From Microbispora sp. (GTDB lineage: Bacteria > Actinomycetota > Actinomycetes > Streptosporangiales > Streptosporangiaceae), in assembly GCA_019689655.1 (NCBI GenBank), contig JADGHC010000006.1:1-35110 (forward strand): 35,110 nucleotides of DNA, given 5' to 3'. The translations under genes and the position numbers were made by a program. Position 1 is the stretch's first letter; the number at the start of each line of letters is the position of its first letter. Positions 13,821 to 16,488 of the stretch are shown in pieces. The notes beneath the pieces were generated by a model. That model saw nothing but the letters and a program-made list of their open reading frames with translations, had not been told where the DNA came from and did no database searches.

Positions 13821-14702
13821 CTACTTGCCGAAGCTCGCGAAGTAGCCGGCCGCCATGTCCTTGTCGCCGTGGCCGAGCTCGGAGGCGCGGACGAAGCGGG
13901 CGAGACCGGCCTCGGCCAGGTCCATGCGAACGCCGGCGCGCCGGGCGGCCTCGACGATGAGGCGGGTGTCCTTGGCCGCGTTGTCCACCGAGAAGCTGGT
14001 GGTGTAGTCGCCGGAGATGACGGCGGCGGACTTGAGCTGGAAGTATCCGTTGTCCGTCGGGCCGCCGCTGACGACCTCGACGAAGTGCTTGGGGTCGACG
14101 CCGAGGCCCTTCGCGAGGGCGAGGGACTCGCCGATGCCGTGGGTGAGGGCGATGACCCAGGAGTTGAGGACCAGCTTGAGGCGGCTGGCGGCGCCGCTTT
14201 CGCCCTCGTCGGCCACCCACATGGTCCGCTTGCCGATGGCGTCGAAGAGCGGGGTGAGCGTGTCGCGCACCTCGGGCGCGGCGGCCGCCATGACGACGAG
14301 CTGGCCCTGCTCGGCGGGCTGGCGGGTGCCCTGCACGGGGGCGTCGACGAAGACCAGGGAGTGCTTGCGGGCGAAGGCGGCCAGCGACTCGACGGCGTCG
14401 CCCACGGTGCTCATCTGCACCCAGATCGTGCCCTCGGCGAGCGAGGGCGCGGCCGCGGTGACGGCTTCCAGCGCGGCGGGGCCGTCCTTGACGACGGTGA
14501 GCACGATCGCGGCTCCCTCGACGGCCTCGGCGGCCGTGTCCGCGACGTGCACCCCGTGCTCGGCGAGCGGTTCGGCCTTGGCGCGGGTGCGGTTCCAGGC
14601 CCGGACCGGGAAGCCGGCCCGGGCGAGATTACGGGCGACCGGGAAGCCGATGATGCCGGTGCCGAGGACGGCGACGGTGGGCTTCGGCGCGGTGCTGGTC
14701 AT
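13821..14702 (-). CDS. NAD(P)-dependent oxidoreductase, 3-hydroxyisobutyrate dehydrogenase / 6-phosphogluconate dehydrogenase NAD-binding family
   Basis: VAVLGTGIIGFPVARNLARAGFPVRAWNRTRAKAEPL, FVDAPVQGTRQPAEQGQLVVMAA, ASRLKLVLNSWV. Confidence 0.92.
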   Translation of the reverse strand: MTSTAPKPTVAVLGTGIIGFPVARNLARAGFPVRAWNRTRAKAEPLAEHGVHVADTAAEAVEGAAIVLTVVKDGPAALEAVTAAAPSLAEGTIWVQMSTVGDAVESLAAFARKHSLVFVDAPVQGTRQPAEQGQLVVMAAAAPEVRDTLTPLFDAIGKRTMWVADEGESGAASRLKLVLNSWVIALTHGIGESLALAKGLGVDPKHFVEVVSGGPTDNGYFQLKSAAVISGDYTTSFSVDNAAKDTRLIVEAARRAGVRMDLAEAGLARFVRASELGHGDKDMAAGYFASFGK

Positions 14703-14982
14703 TGGTGTGTTCCTCCAAGGGTCGGACGGTCCGGGCGGACCGGGAGTGGCGGGAAAGTCCGGGTGCCGGGGTGGCCGTCAGGCCCGGGCGGGCGCGGCCC
14801 CGCCCCTGCGGGCGCGGCGGCGCGGGACGCCCCCGGCGACGGCCGCGAGCGGGCCCGCTACGGCGAGCGGGGCGGCGGTTCGCGACGGGCATCGCACTCC
14901 TCGGGACGGTCGTTCGGCGGTTCTGGAACATTCATTAAAGAATCAGGGCGAGCCGGGCCGGCTCCCGCGCGACGCCGACGGC

Positions 14983-15561
14983 TCAGAGCGCCGCCAGCGT
15001 CGTGTCGACGATGCCGGTGAGGGTGCGGCGGTCCGCGACCTTGCCCAGGACCCGCAGGCCGTACATCGCGTTGAGTACGAACTGCGCGAGCGCCCGCGGA
15101 TCCTTCTCCGCGCCGATCTCGCCGTCTTGCCGGGCGCGGGCGAGCGCGCGGTACAGCGCCTCTTCCACGCGGCCGAAGATACGGCGCACCTGTGCGGTGA
15201 CGTCCGGGTCGAGCCCGGCCAGCTCCACCGCGGCGTTGACCGCGAGACAGCCCCGGCGGCCGTCCCGGGCGGCGGTCTCCTCCTCGACGATGGTCATCAT
15301 CACCGCGCGGATCCGCTCCCGGACCTGCCCGGGCCCGTCGAGGATCGCCTCCTGCCAGGTCGTCCGCTGCTCCTCGTACCGCCGGAGCACCTCCCGGAAG
15401 AGGTGGTGCTTGCTGGCGAAGGCGTTGTACAGGCTGCCCCGTCCCAGTCCGGTGCTGTCCACCAGGTCTTGGGCGGAGGTCGCCGCGTATCCCTTGCGCC
15501 AGAACGCGTCCATGGCGGCGTCGAGGGCGCGCTCGGGATCGAACTGCTTGGGACGGGCCAT
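14983..15561 (-). CDS. TetR/AcrR-family transcriptional regulator
   Basis: N-terminal HTH FDPERALDAAMDAFWRKGYAATSAQDLVDSTGLGRGSLYNAFASKHHLFREVL. Confidence 0.93.
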   Translation of the reverse strand: MARPKQFDPERALDAAMDAFWRKGYAATSAQDLVDSTGLGRGSLYNAFASKHHLFREVLRRYEEQRTTWQEAILDGPGQVRERIRAVMMTIVEEETAARDGRRGCLAVNAAVELAGLDPDVTAQVRRIFGRVEEALYRALARARQDGEIGAEKDPRALAQFVLNAMYGLRVLGKVADRRTLTGIVDTTLAAL

Positions 15562-15734: not shown

Positions 15735-15750
15735 TCGAACACATATTCGT
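15735..15750. promoter_or_regulatory. Second, degenerate SOS-box-like site
   Basis: TCGAACACATATTCGT: perfect left half-site, two mismatches in the right; spaced 40 bp from the stronger box. Confidence 0.4.
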
Positions 15751-15774
15751 TGACAGTCTTGACAGTGGACATGA

Positions 15775-15790
15775 TCGAATCTATGTTCGA
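15775..15790. promoter_or_regulatory. LexA/SOS-box-like operator (near consensus)
   Basis: TCGAATCTATGTTCGA versus actinobacterial consensus TCGAAC-N4-GTTCGA (one mismatch). It overlaps a TATGTT -10-like hexamer 17 bp downstream of TTGACA (15759-15764). Confidence 0.7.
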
Positions 15791-16050
15791 TGGTGTGGGC
15801 GTGGGACTCGCGGCTCGCGCCCACCCCGTTGGATTCGTGCCCTCGTCGTCGGCGGAGACGGATGCGGCATGACCCGCGGCGTGAGCCGGACGGGGAGAGG
15901 GGAAGCTCCTCGTCCGGCCGCCCGCGGGAAGGCGCGGGGCGATCTCGAGCGGTTCGCGGGGTCTCCCGGCCGGCGAAATTGTCGGTGCGGTCTGCGACTG
16001 TGAAGTCACCGGCGACCTTCGCCGGAGTGCCACGACTCAAGGAGGCGGGC

Positions 16051-16488
16051 ATGACTGAGCAGAACGACGATCAGAAAAGCGGGCCCCGGCTCTCGCAGGC
16101 GGTCCTGGCACACCTCGCGAACGCCAGGGCATGCCTCGCGGACGCCACCGCCGGGTCCACCCCCGCCGACCGCTACGTGTCGGCCCATCTGGCGGCTCTC
16201 CGTGCGGCCGCCGGGATCCTCGCGGCGCGTCCGCGGCTCACGAACGGCCGCAGGCGACGGCTGCGCAGCGCCTGGGAGCTGCTGCCGGAGGCCGAGCCCA
16301 AGCTCGCGGACTGGGCGGCCTACTTCTCGGTGACCGCGACCAAGCGCGCGGCGGCCGAGGCGGGCATGGTTCGCGTAGTCACGCAGAACGACGCGGAGGA
16401 GATCATAGCGGAGGCGGACAGGTTCGTCGGCGAGGTCGAGTCGATCCTCGGCCTGCCCGGCCGCCCCACCCTGCCCATGGCCGGCTGA
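16051..16488 (+). CDS. SAV_6107-type HEPN domain protein
   Basis: Preceded by RBS AAGGAGG. Protein LSQAVLAHLANARACLADATAGSTPADRYVSAHLAALRAAAGILAARPR...RRRLRSAWELLPEAEPKLADWAAYFSVTATKRAAAEAG matches my memory of the SAV_6107-like HEPN family. Confidence 0.85.
   Translation: MTEQNDDQKSGPRLSQAVLAHLANARACLADATAGSTPADRYVSAHLAALRAAAGILAARPRLTNGRRRRLRSAWELLPEAEPKLADWAAYFSVTATKRAAAEAGMVRVVTQNDAEEIIAEADRFVGEVESILGLPGRPTLPMAG

Follow-up and report, generated by a model that had tools for sequence, protein, structure and literature searches.

Two predicted DNA-damage promoters and a conserved structured RNA ahead of a HEPN_SAV_6107 gene in Microbispora

In the 35,110-nt stretch of a Microbispora sp. 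genome that we analysed (contig JADGHC010000006.1, assembly GCA_019689655.1; hereafter the window), a gene for a HEPN_SAV_6107 protein appears to lie behind two stacked DNA-damage promoters, the distal of which would produce a structured SOS RNA that also serves as leader, and the encoded protein would act as an accessory of translesion synthesis. We put the probability of this reading as a whole at roughly 0.78. The promoter elements, the covarying helices, the orphan copies of the RNA and the operon linkage to translesion polymerases are supported by comparison among genomes. The locus comprises the following features:

15735-15750, plus strand: LexA-like box 1, TCGAACACATATTCGT, with 2 mismatches to the consensus; position kept in relatives
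15759-15764, plus strand: -35 hexamer TTGACA of the predicted LexA-controlled promoter; offset from box 2 kept in relatives
15775-15790, no strand given: LexA box 2, TCGAATCTATGTTCGA, with 1 mismatch to TCGAAC-N4-GTTCGA; overlaps the -10 hexamer
15782-15787, plus strand: -10 hexamer TATGTT, inside box 2
about 15793-15924, plus strand: structured RNA predicted from the LexA promoter (covariance model R1, fold z, no Rfam match)
15795-15824, plus strand: hairpin A, loop ACUCGCGG (15806-15813); stem covaries
15884-15919, plus strand: hairpin C, near-invariant loop AGGGGAAG; stem covaries across families; matched by model R2
15979-16001, plus strand: putative PafBC / RecA_NDp-type promoter motif TTGTCGGTG-N8-GACTGT, in full TTGTCGGTGCGGTCTGCGACTGT; near match to the published consensus
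16039-16045, plus strand: ribosome-binding site AAGGAGG; conserved in the genus
16051-16488, plus strand: HEPN_SAV_6107 protein, 145 aa, predicted five-helix HEPN fold (Pfam, AlphaFold)

The distal promoter agrees with what an initial annotation had described: the box at 15775-15790 departs from the LexA consensus by a single base, carrying T instead of C at its sixth position, and covers a -10 hexamer that is separated by 17 bp from TTGACA. Box 1, which sits 40 bp upstream of box 2, was absent from that annotation, as were the PafBC-type motif at 15979-16001 and the structured RNA that separates it from the boxes. Taken alone, a box with one mismatch is mildly unusual and proves little; the 6.3-Mb genome contains 38 of them, as against 12 for the reversed pattern, and lexA in the same genome is preceded by three. 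We nevertheless consider that the box here is not a chance match because it is conserved upstream of the HEPN gene in relatives. When the upstream 600 nt were scanned at 80 related loci, retrieved by protein similarity, a LexA box with at most one mismatch was found at 79 of them, compared to 0.5% of control windows drawn from those same loci. At 74 loci of this set box 2 is preceded by a further box at a distance of 39-41 bp, the offset of TTGACA from box 2 is identical in 67 of the 75 loci having box 2, and the operator-over-promoter layout, with two boxes and box 2 on the -10 hexamer, is kept across about 20 genera. For most same-genus relatives, homology begins exactly at 15735 and spans both leader and gene at 81-94% identity. 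The comparison of upstream regions of orthologues that the annotation had proposed also recovered boxes in distant actinobacterial families, where 32 of 38 loci have one with at most one mismatch (0.9% of controls) and 29 of 38 have a perfect one (0 of 570 controls). These comparisons give strong support to SOS control of the HEPN locus by LexA. Of the refuting conditions listed in the annotation, none that sequence can address spoke against such control.

Transcription from the distal promoter is predicted to start at about 15793-15795, and covariance model R1 matches 15792-15924 at 110.8 bits, the window being among the sequences from which R1 was built. The leader folds more stably than its shuffled versions (z -2.5). 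Roughly 20 genera share hairpin A, with its loop ACUCGCGG, and hairpin C, with the core GGGGAAGC, while the remaining leader drifts. Compensatory changes were seen at 6 of 7 pairs in hairpin A (covariation 0.70 versus 0.30 for the control) and, across families, at 11 of 14 pairs in hairpin C (0.49 versus 0.21 when shuffled and 0.10-0.15 when slid). Searching the whole class for the pattern of the hairpin core yielded many chance matches, and a covariance model was used instead. Among the 4227 covariance models of Rfam we found no family match to the RNA, with sub-threshold miRNA matches only. The covariation of the two helices indicates that the leader encodes a structured RNA, one that was previously uncatalogued. 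Hairpin B (loop CUCGACC) and hairpin D (loop CUUCCCC) are present as well in some orders. The loop of D is complementary to the GGGGAAG loop of hairpin C, and pairing between these two loops is possible in about ten loci of the class; it is absent in Microbispora and is not claimed for the window. Alternatively, hairpin C could act as a terminator and restrict how much transcription from the LexA promoter continues into the HEPN gene, since actinobacterial terminators often have no U-tract.

A 232-aa in-frame ORF, running from the ATG at 15790 to the HEPN stop, was considered as an N-terminal extension of the protein and rejected, because in several relatives a stop codon interrupts the frame about 120 nt ahead of the HEPN start. 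The idea of a DUF222/HNH gene remnant near the box, which came from an MFDG start, was dropped once the RNA helices explained the conservation of the leader.

The proximal promoter motif resembles one half of a known arrangement: mycobacterial recA has a dual promoter, P1 dependent on PafBC and P2 on LexA, and the published consensus for RecA-independent (PafBC) promoters is tTGTCRgtg-N8-TAnnnT (PMC5656591). The motif at 15979-16001 fits this consensus except for the first base of the -10 element (GACTGT versus TAnnnT). It is the one match in the whole window, and genome-wide there are 17 matches versus 1 for the reversed control. The motif is present in 78 of the 80 related HEPN loci, compared to 1.2% of controls, typically 58-86 nt ahead of the HEPN start codon. 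Elsewhere in the same genome such motifs precede a dnaN-like sliding clamp gene (a clamp by Pfam) and UvrB-, UvrA- and SbcD-like genes (named by eye, with compatible Pfam domains). Most loci of other orders have no PafBC motif close to the HEPN gene, and there the entire operon evidently has the LexA box as its promoter; the Streptomyces orthologues sampled have the PafBC motif, with no LexA box upstream. We infer that the motif marks a LexA-independent DNA-damage promoter directly serving the HEPN gene. The initial annotation had set a constitutive start close to 16051 against its reading; a separate promoter does appear to be present there, and what it matches is a PafBC-type damage promoter, not a constitutive one. 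The long leader, which that annotation regarded as its main weakness, is no longer an objection because a putative PafBC-type promoter lies near the HEPN start and the leader itself encodes a structured RNA. PafBC-type motifs in this genome are also found ahead of a RibD-C domain gene and a double-zinc-ribbon (ComF-like) gene.

Copies of the RNA also occur in genomes that have no HEPN gene. Model R2, which consists of hairpin C alone, was built without these orphan genomes and includes no LexA box; it matches 61 of the 395 sampled Actinomycetia genomes, once in each. In HEPN-bearing genomes with comparable coordinates, the match is immediately upstream of the HEPN gene, the exception being family f28. 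We inspected 10 same-family genomes of several genera lacking PF18726, and in all 10 a LexA box with at most one mismatch was found 51-122 nt upstream of the hairpin. As R2 was built without those genomes and without the box, this is independent support. All 10 orphan RNAs are in the same bldD-pyrR neighbourhood, and no gene separates them from the convergent bldD; several have a strong following hairpin. No small ORF common to the 10 loci was found, and a conserved RNA-encoded ORF was rejected. Because these copies persist with a LexA box in the absence of HEPN, it is probable that the RNA is an independent non-coding RNA induced in the SOS response, beyond any role as a leader. At these loci (L268-L275, L281 and L284) the SOS RNA is aimed at the 3' end of bldD, some 130-550 nt off, and read-through would be antisense to this developmental regulator. 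In family f28, genus g63 (L276-L279), a similar GUGGGGAAGC hairpin is located between nrdR and an nrdJ-like gene, at about 2550-2640 in the oriented loci, with no LexA box and no Rfam match and sometimes followed by CUUCCCCC; this is possibly a separate RNA of the ribonucleotide reductase operon.

The genes found next to HEPN_SAV_6107 in other families point to translesion synthesis. DnaE2 and/or DinB is in the locus at 28 of 40 sampled Actinomycetia HEPN loci, and in most of these 28 DnaE2 lies within about 500 nt of the HEPN start. The HEPN gene often immediately precedes DnaE2, and a DUF6504 gene is close by; in most HEPN-bearing genomes the RNA is directly ahead of HEPN or of a DUF6504-HEPN-DnaE2 operon. 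One locus, L234, has the order SOS box, HEPN, probable ImuA', probable ImuB and DnaE2 (about -130 to +6100 from HEPN); ImuA' and ImuB were named by eye, and Pfam gave no match for the fragments submitted. In the window's genus, the HEPN gene does not adjoin dnaE2 or dinB and stands alone. Given the operon linkage, with the partnership taken from other families, the likeliest role of the protein is as a non-catalytic accessory in SOS mutagenic translesion synthesis by DnaE2/DinB. The 5-6 Mb genomes sampled from genus g16 of family f6 have no HEPN_SAV_6107, unlike L234, where HEPN heads the operon.

The SAV_6107-type HEPN gene with a strong ribosome-binding site was itself correctly recognised in the initial annotation: the protein matches PF18726 with an E-value of 7.9e-33 and 113.4 bits against a curated cut-off of 27.2. 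This family is found in 248 of the 395 sampled Actinomycetia genomes, nearly always as a single copy. The AlphaFold model has five helices (pLDDT 84), and its best PDB matches are HEPN proteins. The annotation had gone on to propose an effector degrading RNA upon DNA damage, which would be compatible with the HEPN fold and with an R41-x4-H46 that is invariant in the family. However, these residues are located in helix 2, and the canonical RNase site reads KRAAAEAG, with no histidine (by a profile alignment with 2HSB that is weak, E 0.076), such that no Rx4-6H was found at the canonical C-terminal helix. The family was also published without the HEPN RNase motif and with no partner given (PMC3710099), and no antitoxin-like or MNT partner was noticed at the HEPN loci, which are single-copy, widespread and found in repair-polymerase operons. 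The LexA control proposed for the locus is well supported by comparison, whereas an RNA-directed effector is very improbable given the absent motif and the polymerase neighbours.

Two further readings accept the damage promoters and differ on the RNA. It could be merely a cis-acting 5' leader, by attenuation or translational control, with the orphans as remnants after loss of HEPN. Its position directly ahead of HEPN or the DnaE2 operon in most HEPN-bearing genomes speaks for this, as does the switch-like pairing open to the loops of hairpins C and D at about ten loci. A leader without use should decay, however, and ten genomes of several genera that have no HEPN gene still carry the promoter, the LexA box and the hairpin, several of them with a strong following hairpin as well; we hold the cis-leader to be a real possibility, if not the favoured one. 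Somewhat less probable is a pair of units that simply overlap, in which the LexA box drives the RNA alone and all HEPN expression comes from the PafBC-type promoter. With only some 15-60 nt between it and the PafBC motif that follows, hairpin C could terminate the first transcript, and the Streptomyces orthologues manage without a LexA box; against this, most loci of other orders depend for an evident operon promoter on the LexA box, with no PafBC motif near HEPN.

In the two-promoter reading that we prefer, LexA would repress the distal promoter (15759-15790) through two operators, and derepression would yield the structured RNA with hairpins A and C, continuing toward the HEPN gene. The proximal promoter (15979-16001) would give a HEPN mRNA with a short leader, so that, like mycobacterial recA with its P1 and P2, the gene would be responsive to LexA cleavage as well as to the RecA-independent branch. 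The RNA could exist without the gene and would double as a leader where HEPN or mutasome genes follow; its place is probably that of a transcript from the LexA promoter, and the HEPN protein would be a non-catalytic accessory of DnaE2/DinB translesion synthesis. Transcription, binding by LexA and PafBC, activity of the RNA, read-through of the LexA transcript into HEPN and the role of the protein are what we infer from the comparisons above. A broader version is tentative and somewhat doubtful: across the class Actinomycetia, a LexA-repressed structured non-coding RNA may act alone in the SOS response and elsewhere as leader of a polymerase operon, with HEPN_SAV_6107 as its non-catalytic RNA-binding partner and a component of the mutasome.

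Like mycobacterial recA (PMC5656591), the HEPN gene has one predicted LexA-type and one predicted PafBC/RecA_NDp-type promoter, but here two LexA boxes are far upstream, a conserved structured RNA lies between the promoters, and the gene is HEPN_SAV_6107. The ImuA'-ImuB-DnaE2 and DnaE2B-PolY mutasome operons are SOS-boxed and encode DnaE2 with Y-family polymerases (PMC12926913, PMC6511836); in other families HEPN_SAV_6107 is found inside them, whereas it is solitary in the window's genus, and these DnaE2/PolY surveys make no mention of HEPN. The LexA regulon described for Streptomyces venezuelae has the same 16-bp LexA motif as here and includes dnaE2 and dinP as two of its strongest targets, but no HEPN gene is named and we saw no structured RNA described (PMC9380542). 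HEPN RNase toxins and HepT-MntA type modules share the predicted fold of the window's protein, which differs in the absent canonical RNase motif, the lack of a noticed MNT partner, and the SOS and mutasome context.

If correct, this reading would mean that the actinobacterial SOS response includes a layer of RNA, and it would provide the widespread orphan family HEPN_SAV_6107 with a context to guide work on its function. Actinobacteria can acquire resistance mutations through DnaE2-dependent mutagenesis, and a leader RNA or accessory protein on the DnaE2 operon would offer a concrete new handle. The orphan copies let the RNA be studied apart from the protein.

The flanking tetR and arcA genes are on the minus strand, as initially annotated. 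A 3-hydroxyisobutyrate dehydrogenase-like gene and this tetR (13821-15561, minus strand) are between an L,D-transpeptidase gene and the SOS promoter. They look like a lineage-specific insertion, because the promoter of several Microbispora relatives follows immediately after the end of the transpeptidase gene.
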